Below, piece after piece: positions 2,361 to 10,316 of a stretch of DNA of 64,000 bases. The position numbers and the translations under genes are program-made. Each line of letters begins with the position of its first letter. Within the stretch, counting starts at the first letter, position 1. The DNA is from an uncultured Pelagibacteraceae bacterium (GTDB taxonomy: Bacteria > Pseudomonadota > Alphaproteobacteria > Pelagibacterales > Pelagibacteraceae): NCBI GenBank assembly GCA_902572515.1, contig CACGGJ010000001.1, positions 62,001 through 126,000 on the forward strand. The letters are read 5' to 3'. The notes under the pieces were generated by a model. That model worked only from the letters and a program-made list of their open reading frames with translations, was not told where the DNA came from and did not search any database.

Positions 2361-2621
2361 ATGTACCATTATGTATATATTCTCAAAACTTTAGATGGAT
2401 ATTTAAATAAAACATATGTTGGTTATTCAATAGACGTTAATTCAAGATTAAAAAAACACAATTCATCAAAAGGAGCAAAGGCTACCAGAGGCTATAAATG
2501 GAAAATAATTTATAAAAAAAGGTTTTTGTCTAAATCTGAAGCTCTATCCTTTGAATATTTGCTTAAAAAGGATAGAAAAAAAAGATCATCCATATTAAAA
2601 AGAATAAAAAGTAGTATATGA
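2361..2621 (+). CDS. GIY-YIG nuclease domain protein
   Basis: YHYVYILKTLDGYLNKTYVGYSIDVNSRLKKHN: GIY-YIG (UPF0213-like) signature. Confidence 0.85.
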   Translation: MYHYVYILKTLDGYLNKTYVGYSIDVNSRLKKHNSSKGAKATRGYKWKIIYKKRFLSKSEALSFEYLLKKDRKKRSSILKRIKSSI

Positions 2622-4723
2622 AAATAGCAACAATACTTCCGTACAAAGAAAATTATACTTTATCTAAAGCACAAGCAGCTGCTATATGGGTCTGTGATTT
2701 TTTTAAGTTTTCAAAATACCAAGATACAAATTATATATTTGGTAATACAAATACAAAAGATTATTTAACAAAAAATTATACAAATATTAATATAAGCAAT
2801 CTTAAGTCTAAACTATCAAGTACAACTAAAGAATATTGTAAAAATATAATAGCTAAAATTAAAGATGAAAATTTTGATATTATCGAAATCCATAATAGAC
2901 CATTAATCTTTAATTATTTAAAAAAAGAAATTAATTCAAAATATATTTTATATTTCCATAACGATCCATTATCAATGAACGGATCAAAGACGTCAAATGA
3001 GAGGTTAAATTTACTTATAGGTTTAGATAAAATAGTATTTGTAAGTAAATGGGTCCAAGATAGATTTTTTATAGATTTAGATAAAAAACTTTCAGACAAA
3101 ACTGAAATTGTTTACCCGAGTATCCATAAAATAAATAAACTAAATAAAAAAGATAAAAAAATTACATTTGTTGGCAAGCTAAACACATCAAAAGGTTATG
3201 ACATTTATAAAGATGCAATAACTAAAGTACTAGATGAGTATAAAGAATGGAAAGCTTATTCTATTGGAGACGAGGACAGAAAAAGACCTGTTATCAATCA
3301 CCAAAATCATAAAGAATTAGGTTTTCTTAAACATAAAGAAGTTTTGAAATTCTTAAATAAATCAGAAATTGCGGTTGTACCATCAAGATGGGAAGAGCCT
3401 TTTGGTAGAACTGCTCTAGAATCATCATCAAGGGCATGTGCAACTATTATATCTAATAGAGGTGGTTTGCCTGAAACTACAGACCACTGTATTATTTTGA
3501 AAAAATTAAATTCAAAAGAACTATATAAAGAAATTAAAAAATTAATTTTAAATCCAAAATTAAGAAAAAAAATACAAAATAGCGGTTTTAGGAATATTAA
3601 ACATCTTGTTAAAAATAATTCTGAATTTATAGATAGAATCAGAGACAGTTTAATTCAAAATTTTAGCCTTAATTACATAAGAAATAAATTAAGAATTATA
3701 AACATATACAATACTGGACAAAAAAATTTTCATAGACTTTACAATATTTCATTAGGGAAGAAATTTACAAATGGTTTCATTAGGAACGGACATGATGTTC
3801 TAGAAATTAGTGATCGCGATTACATTAGACAAAATAGAAATATATTCCAAGCTAAAAACATTGATAAATTTCAAGATTATTTAGTTAACACATCAAAAAA
3901 TTATAATCCTGACTTAATTTTTTTTGGTCATACACAAAATATATCAACTGAAACCATTAAAGAATTCAAAAACCTAAATGAGAACTTAATAATTTCTCAA
4001 TGGAACGAAGATCCAGTTATGAAAAGTTTAAATTATTCTAAAAAAAATATAGAAAATATAAATAAATATTCAGAAATAGTAGATCATAATTTTGTAACAA
4101 CACACCCAAGTGTTATAAAAAAACAAAAAATTAATATAAAAAATCTTCATTTTTTATTTATTCCGGTAGATAAAAATATTGAATGTTTTGATGTTTCAAA
4201 AAAAAATCCGATTAAAGACTTATTTTATGCAATGAGTCATGGTGTTAATAGAGCAACATTAAAAAAAGGTAAAAATGACTCAAGAATACATTTTCTAAAT
4301 AATCTAATAAAAAAATTAGAAAACATTGATTATGATTTTTATGGTTTCCAGAACAAAGAACCTATATGGGGTAACGATTTTTATAAAGCATTAATTAATT
4401 CAAAAATGGGATTAAATTTAAGTAGAGGTCTTCCAACAAAACATTACTCAAGTAACAGAATTGCATCTTTAATGGGCAATGGACTACTAACATTTGTTGA
4501 TAGAAAAACTGAACTAGATGATATGTTTAATAAGAACGAAATAGTGATTTACGAAAGCATAAATGATTTAACAAATAAGATTAATTTTTACAAAAAAAAT
4601 GATAATTTAAGACGTAAGATAGGATCAGCTGGTCGAAAAAAATATTTTAAATTATTTAATGAACTAAAAACTACAAAATATATTATAGATAAATCTTTAG
4701 GTAAGGACGTTAATCTTTATTGA
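2618..4723 (+). CDS. two-domain glycosyltransferase (GT4-like N-half, CgeB-like C-half)
   Basis: N-half: FVGKLNTSKGYDIY, VPSRWEEPFGRTALESSSRACATIISNRGGLPE (GT4-like). C-half: second GT-B-like region with LNLSRGLPTKHYSSNRIASLMGNGLLTFVDRKTELDDMF (CgeB/Glyco_trans_1_2-like). Confidence 0.8.
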   Translation: MKIATILPYKENYTLSKAQAAAIWVCDFFKFSKYQDTNYIFGNTNTKDYLTKNYTNINISNLKSKLSSTTKEYCKNIIAKIKDENFDIIEIHNRPLIFNYLKKEINSKYILYFHNDPLSMNGSKTSNERLNLLIGLDKIVFVSKWVQDRFFIDLDKKLSDKTEIVYPSIHKINKLNKKDKKITFVGKLNTSKGYDIYKDAITKVLDEYKEWKAYSIGDEDRKRPVINHQNHKELGFLKHKEVLKFLNKSEIAVVPSRWEEPFGRTALESSSRACATIISNRGGLPETTDHCIILKKLNSKELYKEIKKLILNPKLRKKIQNSGFRNIKHLVKNNSEFIDRIRDSLIQNFSLNYIRNKLRIINIYNTGQKNFHRLYNISLGKKFTNGFIRNGHDVLEISDRDYIRQNRNIFQAKNIDKFQDYLVNTSKNYNPDLIFFGHTQNISTETIKEFKNLNENLIISQWNEDPVMKSLNYSKKNIENINKYSEIVDHNFVTTHPSVIKKQKINIKNLHFLFIPVDKNIECFDVSKKNPIKDLFYAMSHGVNRATLKKGKNDSRIHFLNNLIKKLENIDYDFYGFQNKEPIWGNDFYKALINSKMGLNLSRGLPTKHYSSNRIASLMGNGLLTFVDRKTELDDMFNKNEIVIYESINDLTNKINFYKKNDNLRRKIGSAGRKKYFKLFNELKTTKYIIDKSLGKDVNLY

Positions 4724-5568
4724 TGAAAATCTCTATTATAGTTCCTACTTTTAATAATTTAAATTATCTTAATTTTTTTTTATCATCGTTAAAAAAAAAT
4801 TCATTATATGAACATCAAATAATACTACATATTAATGACGGTTCAGATGGTACTCTGAATTTTGCAAAAGAGAATAAATTATTATATACGCACAGCACAA
4901 ATAATATTGGTTTATGCAGCTCTTTAAATAAAGCTGCTAAGTTGGCCAATTCAAATTATATTCTTTATGCTCATGATGATATGTTTTTTTGTAAAAATTG
5001 GGATCTATATTTAGAAAATGAAATTAACAAATTTCCAGATAATTTATTTTATTTAACTGGCACAAATGTATCAGTTAATAACGGACTCATAAACTTTGAT
5101 TGTGGATCAACTCCAGAGAAGTTTGATGAAAAAAAATTTGATGAATTCTGTAAAAATGATTTAAGTAAAGATTTGCAAGGATCTCATTGGGCACCTCATT
5201 TAATTCATAAAGATTTATGGAAAAGGATAGGGGGATTTAGTGAGGAATTTAATCCAGGAGATGGTTCAGATCCTGATTTTTGTATGAAGTTATGGAACAA
5301 AAATGTTAGGGTTTTTAAAACAATTTCAAAATTCAAAGTATATCATTTTAGTTCTGTAACAACTCGAAAAGGGATGATTAAATTGAATAATGGGACCAAA
5401 AGATTCACACTTAAATATGGGTTTAATCCAAGATATTTTCGAAAATATTATTTAAAAGGTGATGGTTCTAATGCTTACAATGGTCCATTAAATAATCCAA
5501 AGATGAATTTTGAAATGTTTATAGATTACTTAATTAATAAACTTAAATTTATTTACTATAAGATTTAA
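4720..5568 (+). CDS. glycosyltransferase family 2 protein
   Basis: ISIIVPTFNNLNYLNFFLSSL...NDGSDG...YILYAHDDMFF...WKRIGGFSEEFNPGDGSDPDFCMKL. Confidence 0.88.
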   Translation: MMKISIIVPTFNNLNYLNFFLSSLKKNSLYEHQIILHINDGSDGTLNFAKENKLLYTHSTNNIGLCSSLNKAAKLANSNYILYAHDDMFFCKNWDLYLENEINKFPDNLFYLTGTNVSVNNGLINFDCGSTPEKFDEKKFDEFCKNDLSKDLQGSHWAPHLIHKDLWKRIGGFSEEFNPGDGSDPDFCMKLWNKNVRVFKTISKFKVYHFSSVTTRKGMIKLNNGTKRFTLKYGFNPRYFRKYYLKGDGSNAYNGPLNNPKMNFEMFIDYLINKLKFIYYKI

Positions 5569-5572
5569 AATA

Positions 5573-6472
5573 ATGGACAGAATTATAATTGCAAAAATCT
5601 CTGAAGGATTAGGAAATCAATTATTTATGTATGCAAATGCTTATACAATTTCAAGAAAATTTGATCTCAATTTATGTTTAGATCCATACAGTGGATACTA
5701 TAAAAATAATATTAGATCATATATGCTTAATAATTTTAATATATCATCTAAAATAGCAACGTCTGAGTGGATATTTTCTAACAATTATAGGAATTTAATA
5801 AAAAAAATTAAAATTAAATGCGATTTTTTTAAAAAAAAAAAATCTTTTTTATTTGAATCAAAAAATAAAAATAAATTTACAAAATTTAGTTCTATTAAAT
5901 TAGATAATTTTAATGATCAAATTTATATTGATGGCAACTTTGAGTCAGAAAAATATTTCTCAGATTATAGAAATGATCTTTTAAATGAATTCTCATTTAA
6001 AAAAGATATGAGTAATAATAAATACCTAGATATTATTAGGAAGCATAATGTTGTCTCGATAAGTATTAGACAAAATCGATACTCTGAAAGAATGAACAAT
6101 AAGTTTGACCAACATTCAATTAGTAAATCTCAAGATTTTGTTGCTAAAACTGTAGATTATATTTATCAAGCAATTAAGTTAATTTCATCTAAAGTAAATA
6201 ATCCAAAATTTCTTTTATGGAGTAATGATTTTACAGGTCTTGAACAATATTTTCCAACTAATGAATTTTTATATGTAATTAATCCAGAAGATAAAATTTT
6301 AAATGATTTTTATTTATTAACACAGTGTAAATATTTCATTGTTGGTCCGTCGACATTTAGTTGGTGGGGAGCTTGGTTATCTAATAATGAAAGTAAAATA
6401 TGTATTAGACCTAAAAATATTAATCCTTCAAATAATATTGATTTTTGGCCTGAGTCTTGGATATCAATTTAA
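5573..6472 (+). CDS. GT11-like (alpha-1,2-fucosyltransferase family) glycosyltransferase
   Basis: IIAKISEGLGNQLFMYANAYTISRKF N-terminus and GPSTFSWWGAWLS C-terminal motif. Confidence 0.8.
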   Translation: MDRIIIAKISEGLGNQLFMYANAYTISRKFDLNLCLDPYSGYYKNNIRSYMLNNFNISSKIATSEWIFSNNYRNLIKKIKIKCDFFKKKKSFLFESKNKNKFTKFSSIKLDNFNDQIYIDGNFESEKYFSDYRNDLLNEFSFKKDMSNNKYLDIIRKHNVVSISIRQNRYSERMNNKFDQHSISKSQDFVAKTVDYIYQAIKLISSKVNNPKFLLWSNDFTGLEQYFPTNEFLYVINPEDKILNDFYLLTQCKYFIVGPSTFSWWGAWLSNNESKICIRPKNINPSNNIDFWPESWISI

Positions 6473-6490
6473 TTTTTTTTTAAATTAAAT
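6467..6490. terminator. AT-only inverted repeat between convergent genes (candidate bidirectional terminator)
   Basis: ATTTAATTT-TTTTTT-AAATTAAAT, perfect 9-bp arms between the GT11 and integrase stop codons; AT-only, so weak. Confidence 0.35.
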
Positions 6491-7438
6491 CTTTATTTTG
6501 TTTAATGCATTATTTTTAAATATATTTGCCTCTTTAATATATCTCCTAACCATTTGTGTTGATTTATGACCTGTCATGGCCATTATACTTCGCTCATCAG
6601 CACCAGAGTCTGCGGCAACTGTAGCAAAACCTGACCTTAAACTATGACCAGCGAAATTTTTATTTTCAATACCTGCTATATTTAAATATTTTTTCATTAA
6701 TAAAACTACTGATTGGTCAGTTAATCTTTTATCTGTTAAGGATAAACCTTTCGAAAATCTTCTAAAAATCGGTCCAGTTTTAATATTCGATATCTTTAAC
6801 CATTTTTGTAATGTTTTAACAGGACAAAAAATTTCATTATAGAAATAGGGTAGTCCTTTAATCATTCCTTCACCATACTGATCAGTTTTAGATCTTTTAA
6901 TAGAGATTTTAAGACCCTCAGGAACAAATTCTAAATCCTCATGGTCAATTGAAATAAGTTCAGTTCTTCGAAATCCACCTCCAAACCCAATCAAAATTAT
7001 TGATTTGTCTCTCAACTTCTTAATATCATCAATTTTTTGTTGATTTATTACATTAATTATGGATTTTAAATGATTGATTAATAATGGTTTTTTACCTTTT
7101 TGAATGCTACCTTTTACCCTTCTAATTCCCATTAAATTTTCAACAATGATAGGATGTTTTGTATCTAAATAATGGCCTTTTAGCTTATGAACCATACTTA
7201 TAGACACGAGTCTTCTTCGTAATGTGCTTATTTTTGAATTTTTAGAGAGGTGGGTTAAATACAATGAAACAATTTTTGGTTCCGTTGGTAATGAATTTAA
7301 GCCGTGTTTTGAACAAAATAAACCAAAATCTTTAAAGTCAGACTTATAAGCTTTTAAAGTATTATTTGCCTTAGAGTTTTTTAAGTTATTTAAAGTTGCC
7401 TCATGAAGCAATTTTAAGTCTGTTGTTAGCTCATTCAT
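6485..7438 (-). CDS. tyrosine recombinase / integrase
   Basis: Catalytic set present: R in GGGFRRTELISI, K in ISIKRSKTDQ, HSLRSG, GHKS, Tyr in MVRRYIKEA; N-terminal SAM-like DNA-binding region. Confidence 0.92.
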   Translation of the reverse strand: MNELTTDLKLLHEATLNNLKNSKANNTLKAYKSDFKDFGLFCSKHGLNSLPTEPKIVSLYLTHLSKNSKISTLRRRLVSISMVHKLKGHYLDTKHPIIVENLMGIRRVKGSIQKGKKPLLINHLKSIINVINQQKIDDIKKLRDKSIILIGFGGGFRRTELISIDHEDLEFVPEGLKISIKRSKTDQYGEGMIKGLPYFYNEIFCPVKTLQKWLKISNIKTGPIFRRFSKGLSLTDKRLTDQSVVLLMKKYLNIAGIENKNFAGHSLRSGFATVAADSGADERSIMAMTGHKSTQMVRRYIKEANIFKNNALNKIKI

Positions 7439-7440
7439 AT

Positions 7441-7477
7441 TATTACTATCGATAACAATTAATTATCGTTAGTAATA
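7441..7477. repeat. near-perfect inverted repeat abutting integrase start codon (candidate recombinase or operator site)
   Basis: T-ATTACTATCGATAA | CAATTAA | TTATCGTTAGTAAT-A: 15-bp arms, one mismatch, 7-bp spacer. Confidence 0.7.
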
Positions 7478-7555
7478 TATCAAGTGTTTTATAATGTCAA
7501 ATAAAATAATTTATTAATTTAAAAGACAATTAATGACATTGCGAGAACAGCAAGT

Positions 7556-7744
7556 ATGAAATATTATTTAAAGATGGGCATAGACGGAGTAATTGAACCG
7601 ATATATTTCTTAATAACATCAATTGGTTTTGCGTTATTAAGCTTTATTAATTATAAAAAATCTGGAAAAACTTTGGAAACTATTTATCTTTCCATTTTAA
7701 CTATTTTTTTTATAGTTTGCTTTATTATTTTAAATTTTTATTAA
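7556..7744 (+). CDS. small hypothetical membrane protein (62 aa)
   Basis: ORF with two hydrophobic segments (VIEPIYFLITSIGFALLSFI; TIYLSILTIFFIVCFIILNF). Confidence 0.45.
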   Translation: MKYYLKMGIDGVIEPIYFLITSIGFALLSFINYKKSGKTLETIYLSILTIFFIVCFIILNFY

Positions 7745-8013
7745 TGAAAGGCACTAAATTTCAATTAAAAGTCTGGAAATATCTTGAAACTATACCAAAA
7801 GGTACTGTCAAAACCTATAAGCAGGTAGCAATTGCAATAAAAAGACCTAAATCAGCCCGTGCTGTAGCTAATGCATGTGGAAAAAACCCTTATCCGCCCA
7901 AAATACCGTGTCATAGAGTAATTCGGTCCGATGGAGGCCTTGGTGGATACTCAGGCAGAGGTGGAATTAAGACAAAACTGCGTTTATTGAGATCTGAAAA
8001 AGTTGATATTTAG
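7744..8013 (+). CDS. minimal methylated-DNA--protein-cysteine methyltransferase-domain protein
   Basis: KGTKFQLKVWKYLETIPKGTVKTYKQVA...ARAVANACGKNP...IPCHRVIRSDGGLGGYSGG-type; PCHR Cys retained. Start moved from 7717 to the ATG at 7744. Confidence 0.85.
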   Translation: MKGTKFQLKVWKYLETIPKGTVKTYKQVAIAIKRPKSARAVANACGKNPYPPKIPCHRVIRSDGGLGGYSGRGGIKTKLRLLRSEKVDI

Positions 8014-8068
8014 TGGCTTTTTTGGCCTATTTTATGGTCAAAAACACTAAAAAAATCAACGTTTTTTC
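7996..8068 (+). terminator. extended nested hairpin at the 3' end of the MGMT-domain gene
   Basis: Outer GAAAAAGTTGAT (7996-8007) / ATCAACGTTTTTTC (8055-8068); inner AGTGGCTTTTTTGGCC (8012-8027) / GGTCAAAAACACT (8036-8048). Confidence 0.5.
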
Positions 8069-8548
8069 AATATTTAAGGATATTTTAGAATGAATAGTGT
8101 TATGCACCCTTCAGTTGTGCTATATATCGAGATTTAACAAAATAAAGCACCTCTATGGCCGTTTAAAACACATATTCTATAACTGCATTGCTCTACTTTT
8201 TAATGATAACAAAGCTTATTTTAGCGTCTAATTTCAAATAAATTTTTATGAATTTTTGTTCCCCTACCCACTTTGTTTAATAAGAATTTTGAATTTTGTG
8301 TATAATTAGCTTAAAAAACCATTGGTATTAAACACTTTTAAGCATTGTACTTTATTTTCTCTTTCAAGCTTACCATTTTTGACTTAGTTTATTTAAAAGA
8401 GTATCTATTATTTTTAATTTTCTTGTATAAACTCAATGATTTATTTTAATTTTTGTTTATTATTATAATTAATTTATATAATAATTACAATAGTTTAATT
8501 ATATATATTAAAGTATTACATTATATATTAGTAAATATTTATTTACTA

Positions 8549-9400
8549 TTATTTAGAACGAGTAAGCAAATATTCTCTTCTAGAAATATATAAACCACTG
8601 AGAACAATAATAAACAAACCTAAATAAGTCCAATTATCAGGTAACTCATGAAAGAAATAGTAACTAATCAGTATATTTGTAATAATCTCTGTATAGCCCA
8701 AAGGAGCTAATTTAGAAGCATCAGCGTATTTGAGTGATAATATGAGGAAAAGGTGCGCTACAGAGGCTATTAGGCCGATTAGAGCCATCAAAATCCACTG
8801 ATTTGACGTAGGATTAACCCAAACTGAGGGCATAAATAGACTAATTATTATAGTTCCTATCAAACCAGATAGTAAAAGAGTTAAAAGAGGATTATCAGAG
8901 GTGCTGAGCTTCCTAGTGATTATAAGATAAAATCCATAGCAAATTCCATTACCTAAAGCAGCCATAGTAGCCAAGTTAAGCTCAATAAAACCAGGTCTAA
9001 TTACAATTAAAGTTCCAATAAAACCTAATGATACAGCAGTCCACCTTTTCATCCCTACTTTCTCATTTAAAAAAAATGGAGATAAGGCTGTAACACAAAT
9101 TGGAGCAACAAAAGCTAAGGTTAAGGCTTTAGGAAGTGAAATTTCCGATATTGCATAAAAGAACAAATAAGTAGAAAAAACAAAAATTAATCCTCTAATT
9201 AATTGAAGGGCTGGTTTTTTCGTCCAAACTAATGAATGCCTATAAAAGATAAGCATTAGGGATAATGTAAAAACTACAGTAAAAAAATATCTTGCCCACG
9301 TTATCTGTAAAACATCCATAGATGAGCTTAAATATTTAGCAAAAGCATCCATTACAGGAACAATCATCCAAGCAGATGCATTTAAAATTATAGCCTTCAC
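8549..9400 (-). CDS. EamA/DMT-family transporter
   Basis: Ten-TM EamA-like: WARYFFTVVFTLSL, ALTLAFVAPICVTALSPFFLNEKVG, KLAPLGYTEIITNILISYYFFHELP. Confidence 0.88.
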   Translation of the reverse strand: MKAIILNASAWMIVPVMDAFAKYLSSSMDVLQITWARYFFTVVFTLSLMLIFYRHSLVWTKKPALQLIRGLIFVFSTYLFFYAISEISLPKALTLAFVAPICVTALSPFFLNEKVGMKRWTAVSLGFIGTLIVIRPGFIELNLATMAALGNGICYGFYLIITRKLSTSDNPLLTLLLSGLIGTIIISLFMPSVWVNPTSNQWILMALIGLIASVAHLFLILSLKYADASKLAPLGYTEIITNILISYYFFHELPDNWTYLGLFIIVLSGLYISRREYLLTRSK

Positions 9401-9416
9401 AAAATAAGGATATATC

Positions 9417-10316
9417 TTAATAGAAGTATTTTAAAGCAAAGAATAATGTAGTCGGAATAGTGAATAAGGACATGATTGTAGATACTACAATTGTGCTAGA
9501 AATATTATCTACAATTTCTTTAGGAGAATACATGTGCGCAATCAAATAACACAAAATTGCACTAGGCATACAAGACTGAATTAACAGAACACCAGCTGGT
9601 ATACCAGATAAATTAAAAAATTTTATAACAGCAAATCCTATAATAGGACCTAATATTACTCTTCCAAAAGAAGTTATTAATGCATCTTTAAAAGAAAATA
9701 CTTTCATTTGTGTAAGAGCCACACCTAATGACATAAGGATCATTACAATCATTCCATAAGCTAAAAGCATTACAGTATTTAATACAAATTGAGGAAATGG
9801 AATTTCAAAATACAAAAAGAGTACTGTTATTAAAATTGCATAAAATGATGGACTCTTTAATATTGTTTTAAAATCAAAGGCTCGTTTTGCTAAAAAAATA
9901 TTAAGAGTAAAGTGGAGTAAAACAATTAAAGATGAAATTGCAGCTGCTATACCCATTCCTAAATCACCATAGGCAAATAAACAAATTGGAATACCCATAT
10001 TTCCAGTATTTGGTAAGATAAAAGTTGGTAATTCACGAATATAATCTTTCTTCATAAGAATAAGAAAAATTAAACCTACAATCCCAAATAATGTTAATAA
10101 GATGATTGCGTAACCAAAATATTCACTAAATAACTCAAAAGTTACTCCACCAGCTGTAATAGCAAAAATAACGAGAGCAGGAGTTCCAAAATTACCAGCG
10201 TATGTAGTTATAAATGATGTATCAAAATCAGGATTTTTTTTACCCAAATGATATCCAAGACCTACTATTAGGAATACTGGAAATAAAACTTCAAAAAGTT
10301 TTAAATAAATTTCCAT
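9417..10316 (-). CDS. AEC-family (auxin efflux carrier-like) transporter
   Basis: VFLIVGLGYHLGK, LPNTGNMGIPICLFAYG, QSCMPSAILCYLIAHMY motifs. Confidence 0.87.
   Translation of the reverse strand: MEIYLKLFEVLFPVFLIVGLGYHLGKKNPDFDTSFITTYAGNFGTPALVIFAITAGGVTFELFSEYFGYAIILLTLFGIVGLIFLILMKKDYIRELPTFILPNTGNMGIPICLFAYGDLGMGIAAAISSLIVLLHFTLNIFLAKRAFDFKTILKSPSFYAILITVLFLYFEIPFPQFVLNTVMLLAYGMIVMILMSLGVALTQMKVFSFKDALITSFGRVILGPIIGFAVIKFFNLSGIPAGVLLIQSCMPSAILCYLIAHMYSPKEIVDNISSTIVVSTIMSLFTIPTTLFFALKYFY

Follow-up and report, generated by a model that had tools for sequence, protein, structure and literature searches.

A probable dif site and its adjacent single tyrosine recombinase in Pelagibacteraceae (SAR11)

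The window analysed here, a 64,000-nucleotide stretch from the genome of an uncultured Pelagibacteraceae (SAR11) bacterium, contains a tyrosine recombinase gene whose ATG is separated by 2 nt (7439-7440) from a 37-bp inverted repeat. The closest relatives among GTDB genomes are likewise assigned to Pelagibacteraceae. The features of the recombinase locus are the following.

6485-7438, minus strand: single tyrosine recombinase of 317 aa, an open reading frame with a Phage_integrase domain match (PF00589).
7441-7477, no strand assigned: proposed dif site of two inverted 15-bp arms around a 7-bp spacer, from the repeat scan, ortholog conservation and shuffles.
7441-7455, plus strand: first arm, TATTACTATCGATAA, with the half-site common to the plasmid homologs (ACNNNYGATAA) and the pelagiphages (ATTACTANYGATAA).
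7456-7462, plus strand: spacer CAATTAA, the proposed strand-exchange region, with 99% per-base conservation over 108 distinct sites.
7463-7477, plus strand: second arm, TTATCGTTAGTAATA, from the repeat scan and ortholog conservation.
7451-7467, no strand assigned: 17-bp core, GATAACAATTAATTATC, directly upstream of the recombinase in four genera.
7495-7500, minus strand: TTGACA, a -35-like element 17 bp before the outer arm (TATTAC), with 94-100% per-base conservation in the orthologs.

Elsewhere in the window, at 2281-2621, a GIY-YIG domain protein is encoded after a tRNA-Glu gene and directly downstream of a gene that we take to be glpX-like; such a tRNA-Glu/GIY-YIG spot is a typical place for small mobile genes.

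The full site reads TATTACTATCGATAA-CAATTAA-TTATCGTTAGTAATA, and its arms (7441-7455 and 7463-7477) are complementary at 14 of 15 positions, so that the first-pass annotation was right to describe 15-bp arms with one mismatch, a 7-bp spacer and a position adjoining the start codon of the integrase (the 6485-7438 reading frame). It also held that the repeat is not the trivial self-complementarity of AT-rich DNA. The genome is indeed AT-rich and long weak inverted repeats are frequent in the region, as a functionless chance palindrome would have it. However, 7441-7477 is the only inverted repeat of the window with 15-bp arms, at most one mismatch and a spacer of 3-12 nt, where first-order shuffles predict 0.37 such repeats, or 0.03 with at least three G/C per arm, and the arm pattern occurs once in the window and in none of 100 shuffles. 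Allowing up to three mismatches, the site is single-copy in the whole 1.17-Mb genome.

Conservation rules out a chance palindrome, whose probability we regard as negligible. Over 140 orthologous loci with 108 distinct upstream sequences, the site is found at the start codon, usually 2 nt off, and its arms are conserved at 96% and its spacer at 99%, compared with 67% for the 60 nt upstream. The repeat is therefore present upstream of the orthologous integrases, whose lack of it would have spoken against a recombination site. With up to three mismatches allowed, the site was detected in 63 of 200 related genomes, all from one genus and all with the recombinase gene; it is absent from those of the 200 that lack the gene. 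At greater distance, in four genera with 54-69% protein identity, 18/18 divergent genomes have the 17-bp core GATAACMATTAATTATC with its asymmetric spacer immediately before the gene, exact in 17 and with one mismatch in the remaining one. The outer arms differ there, and the spacer reads CCATTAA in more distant orthologs.

The gene itself occurs in 13 of the 14 genera of the family and in 111/127 genomes that are at least 90% complete. The 16 genomes without it are about twice as many as incompleteness predicts and may reflect loss, replacement or assembly gaps at the terminus. Near-complete Pelagibacteraceae without a copy include G039, G056, G211, G218, G227, G369 and G391; an unrelated integrase is present where the copy is missing in G039, G056 and G475.

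Could the repeat be an operator and nothing else? It abuts the ATG just downstream of the conserved TTGACA, a position in which symmetric operators are common, and the first-pass annotation gave an autoregulatory operator equal standing with a core site for a tyrosine recombinase. The consensus promoter scan does not list the element at 7495-7500; the arrangement suggests that promoter and site overlap. Because the site sits on the promoter of the recombinase gene, binding there may also repress that gene, with autoregulation as an added role. The reading in which the repeat is only an autoregulatory operator, or the site of another regulator, with no part in recombination, does not account for the spacer: an operator has no need of an asymmetric spacer with this degree of conservation.

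All six catalytic residues of the recombinase are present (R157, K184, H265, R268, H291 and Y300). The protein scores far below every curated Xer cut-off tested (XerC, XerD, XerA and XerS), with 70.6 bits against a cut-off of 329.6 for XerD, 62.2 against 335 for XerC and 43 against 267 for the NCBIfam XerS model. No XerH model is among its NCBIfam matches, and the best match to the solved XerH 5jjv is weak (E = 0.0053), as is the sequence match to Cre (E = 7e-5). Its tail has no RQ-QQ motif, which a review gives for the contact between XerD and FtsK; XerS is likewise without it.

Exactly one PF00589 tyrosine recombinase is encoded in this genome and in most of its relatives. Eight of 11 single-contig genomes have just this one, and three carry a single additional integrase that is unrelated. 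In the sister family there are two canonical Xer genes (XerC/XerD) and a classical dif that recurs, as AATTCGTATAATATATATTATGTAAAAT in several genomes. A search of Pelagibacteraceae for a classical 28-bp dif gave no consistent candidate, only scattered matches with 1-2 mismatches. Of 25 genomes with a completeness of at least 90%, 24 retain FtsK with an intact gamma domain, which in the present genome lies at C11:22809-22988.

The position of the site relative to the replication terminus was assessed by GC skew in one nearly complete genome, one sampled complete genome and four contigs. In G012 (complete, 1,343,202 bp, of which 1,285,000 were read) the cumulative GC skew peaks at 615,774, 1826 bp from the site at 617,600. 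The corresponding distance is 1055 bp in G082 (complete; sampled outside the terminus region, which was covered in full), 1051 bp in the contig of the present genome, 1208 bp in G046 and 776 bp in G008. Site and maximum are thus 0.8-1.8 kb apart in five genomes, including two complete ones; the distances are not independent because the genomes are related. In G004, represented by 80 kb of sequence, the skew is flat and a local maximum lies about 11 kb from the site. Of four sets of 7- and 8-nt motifs chosen more than 100 kb away in G012, three change polarity at distances of 2.0, 2.4 and 2.7 kb from the site and the fourth at 8 kb. A pure operator would have no need to sit at a GC-skew maximum.

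Outside SAR11, the nearest homologs of the recombinase are “site-specific integrases” of plasmids, with up to 44% identity. In the tree, the SAR11 recombinases form one clade among the plasmid proteins, and a branch with 100/100 support separates the Xer proteins of the sister family. We compared 22 plasmid loci from Bacillota, Chlamydiota, Bacteroidota, Rhodothermota, Pseudomonadota and Actinomycetota. An ATAA-N6/7-TTAT inverted repeat with matching arms lies upstream of the gene or operon in 15 of them, where shuffles predict 0.08; the remaining seven have no such repeat within the stretch read, and none of the 22 has one in the gene or the stretch downstream. The repeats are of the type ACNNN(C/T)GATAA-N6/7-TTATC. 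Their arms align with those of the SAR11 sites, and the spacers, of 6-7 bp, differ in sequence; in ACTAACGATAA-TATATAG-TTATCAATAGT, from a Mesobacillus plasmid, the SAR11 arms surround another spacer. In tyrosine-recombinase sites, arms are conserved while spacers are free in sequence and nearly fixed in length when only identity with the partner site matters. Both by kinship apart from XerC/D and by its half-site, the SAR11 recombinase belongs with the plasmid group that has GATAA-N6/7-TTATC sites. That the plasmid repeats sometimes lie 0.3-1.2 kb upstream, some of them ahead of another gene in the operon, also argues against an operator. The gene-site pairing recurs in viruses: of 69 viral contigs with related TTCCGATAA arms, nine encode a recombinase homolog within 400 bp, and these contigs are an independent replicate of the pairing.

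Across the plasmid loci (L283-L304) we see a cross-phylum recombinase family with GATAA-N6/7-TTATC repeats upstream. The repeat precedes an AbrB-led gene pair in the recombinase operon in L283 and L292, and parA is near the recombinase in L293, L295 and L296. In L289, from a Mesobacillus foraminis plasmid, a proline aligns at the first catalytic arginine (R157) and the site is intact; the proline may indicate an inactive enzyme, a sequence error or a misalignment.

The plasmid kinship raises the question whether the site is the att or res of a resident mobile element, that is, an integrase with its att/res and not a housekeeping system. The border of variable glycosyltransferase genes on one side (window 2618-6472, with a glycosyltransferase-11 gene in 8/57 related loci) fits such an element. 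The conserved side (7744-10316) does not, with ogt and EamA neighbours in 57/57 loci. Moreover, the gene is spread over nearly all genera of the family as a single SAR11 clade, and no XerC/XerD is present to do the housekeeping job. A resident-element integration site was rejected for want of a second att copy in the genome, and we consider it very improbable.

The reading that we favour, and hold to be very probable from comparative sequence evidence, is that SAR11 (Pelagibacteraceae) uses the 37-bp repeat as its dif site for chromosome dimer resolution, with the product of the neighbouring gene as the only cognate Xer-type tyrosine recombinase. One recombinase, a single-copy site, a terminus position, adjacency of gene and site and an FtsK gamma domain are found together, as in single-recombinase dif/Xer systems, whose sites measure about 30 bp with inverted arms around a centre of 6-11 bp and, for XerS and XerH, adjoin the gene. 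A classical XerC/XerD-dif system does not fit, with a single gene under both cut-offs and no consistently placed 28-bp dif; XerS does not fit by score and by the 7-bp spacer, and close similarity to XerH is lacking. Taken together, this argues strongly for an independently recruited single-recombinase variant of dif/Xer. A tyrosine-recombinase core site, which had been likened to lox, is now strongly favoured and can be narrowed to a chromosomal dif because of its place at the terminus, its single copy, its association with the only tyrosine recombinase, the arms shared with plasmids around different spacers and the copies in SAR11 phages. What falls away is the equal standing of the operator, which may persist as a second function.

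By analogy with XerS, XerH and XerL, binding, cleavage, activation by FtsK and dimer resolution would proceed as follows. Two recombinase monomers would occupy the two arms of each site. Once sister chromosomes have become fused through homologous recombination, FtsK would bring the two terminus copies of dif together at the septum. Four monomers would then form a synapse, in which Y300 would cut and strands would be exchanged across the 7-bp spacer to give two chromosome monomers. The module of gene and adjacent site probably derives from a plasmid cassette for multimer resolution that took the place of the ancestral XerC/XerD-dif. Replacement and not simple loss appears the parsimonious reading, given that XerC/XerD and a classical dif persist in the sister family, while SAR11 has one recombinase and the FtsK gamma domain; its direction and timing are inferred.

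Copies of the site are also carried by pelagiphages. The full SAR11-arm repeat occurs in 69 viral contigs, compared with 0 for a reversed-arm control; the strict 27-base form of the site has no viral match. The 17-bp core is found in 29 IMG/VR contigs, many with extra symmetry such as TTCCGATAACAATTAATTATCGGAA, and in 13 of these a half-site, ATTACTANNGATAA, lies within 90 bp of the core, where 1.3 are expected. By our estimate, a collection of this size could yield the 29 core matches by chance, and we therefore rely on the symmetry of the arms, the nearby half-sites and the 69-versus-0 scan. No recombinase homolog is encoded in the contigs of either the 17-bp-core or the full-SAR11-arm scan. 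Phages that carry the repeat and have no recombinase gene are not what a pure operator predicts. Such an operator, which would leave terminus position, plasmid pairing and phage copies unexplained, was rejected on these three grounds and seems to us unlikely.

Many of the full-repeat contigs carry a terminase large subunit of the HTVC010P or HTVC106P type (58-80% identity), and the repeat is mostly 310-600 bp upstream of terL. The isolate HTVC035P (MW273923.1:35826-35888) has two adjacent repeats upstream of terL; HTVC106P and HTVC034P have a repeat or half-site there, and HTVC010P a weaker one. Throughout the viral loci L306-L332 and L338-L404 (for example L332:4200-4320), one or two adjacent dif-like repeats lie in the gap before terL. 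No phage terminase, and hence no prophage next to dif, was seen in the host loci examined. Lysogeny of HTVC010P-type phages and of PNP1 is reportedly the subject of work by Du et al. 2021 and Morris et al. 2020. A 2024 paper (PMC11094077) says of the most abundant pelagiphages that their genomes encode no known means of integrating into the chromosome. Could they make use of the host recombinase? For phages whose second repeat bears the host spacer CAATTAA, entry into the chromosome at dif may be one use. Many phage repeats have private spacers, for which circularisation or concatemer resolution would fit better than integration at dif; we offer these uses of the phage sites as a lead. A wider picture, in which we place somewhat less than even confidence, is that SAR11 lost XerC/XerD-dif and uses a captured plasmid cassette, and that tandem dif-like sites before terL let HTVC010P/HTVC106P-type phages exploit the host recombinase, be it for entry at dif or for circularising or resolving their own genomes. 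If true, it would provide a lysogeny or genome-processing route for phages with no known integration mechanism.

The proposed system can be compared with several known ones. XerS/difSL of streptococci and lactococci likewise has a single recombinase with the site immediately adjoining its gene as one module (PMC5357621, PMC2731167); difSL is 31 bp with an 11-bp central region and XerS has 356 aa, as opposed to the 7-bp spacer, near-perfect arms and 317 aa in SAR11. XerH/difH of Helicobacter and Campylobacter shares the single recombinase and a site near the gene, but XerH has 354-362 aa and a different site sequence, and the SAR11 recombinase is only weakly similar to it. XerL/dif of Legionellales, again a single-recombinase system in a lineage reported to be without dif/Xer, has a site with perfectly symmetric arms that lies near the GC-skew maximum and is hijacked by a mobile element (PMC9765430). 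XerL is set apart by size and site description: its catalytic tyrosine is residue 387, so the protein is longer, and the 10-bp arms are unlike any known Xer motif (PMC9765430). Classical XerC/XerD-dif resembles the SAR11 system in proposed function, terminus position, ATAA...TTAT inner arms and the presence of FtsK, but it relies on a pair of recombinases and its 28-bp site has a 6-bp centre, whereas SAR11 has one recombinase, a 7-bp centre and longer symmetric arms. Closest are the plasmid recombinases (Alicyclobacillus, Mesobacillus, Niallia, Protochlamydia, Salinibacter, Runella and others), which have the same site design upstream of the gene and differ in being plasmid-borne and in their spacers; the papers searched hold no experimental description of this family. 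Cre/loxP, too, consists of one recombinase and two inverted arms around a short spacer, but Cre, a phage P1 protein, is not closely related. The arms of loxP are 13 bp long and its spacer is 8 bp.

Few bacterial groups on Earth are as abundant as SAR11. In a 2009 survey, Carnoy and Roten stated that P. ubique “does not possess a dif/Xer system”, and treated it as a free-living organism that had given up dif/Xer in its small genome (PMC2731167). The same survey denied dif/Xer to Legionellales, in which a single-recombinase system was later demonstrated (PMC9765430). In the papers searched, a set that leaves out two relevant phage papers, we found no description of a dif/Xer system in SAR11. A working system would overturn the conclusion on P. 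ubique, join XerS, XerH, XerA and XerL as a further single-recombinase Xer system of independent recruitment, and be a case in which a core function of the chromosome passed to a plasmid stability cassette. The analysis supplies a defined pair of site and recombinase, a marker that places the terminus of SAR11 genomes precisely and, for plasmid recombinases of a widespread family, the half-site rule ACNNNYGATAA.... It also offers a testable account of the way in which pelagiphages that lack an integrase may interact with the host chromosome.
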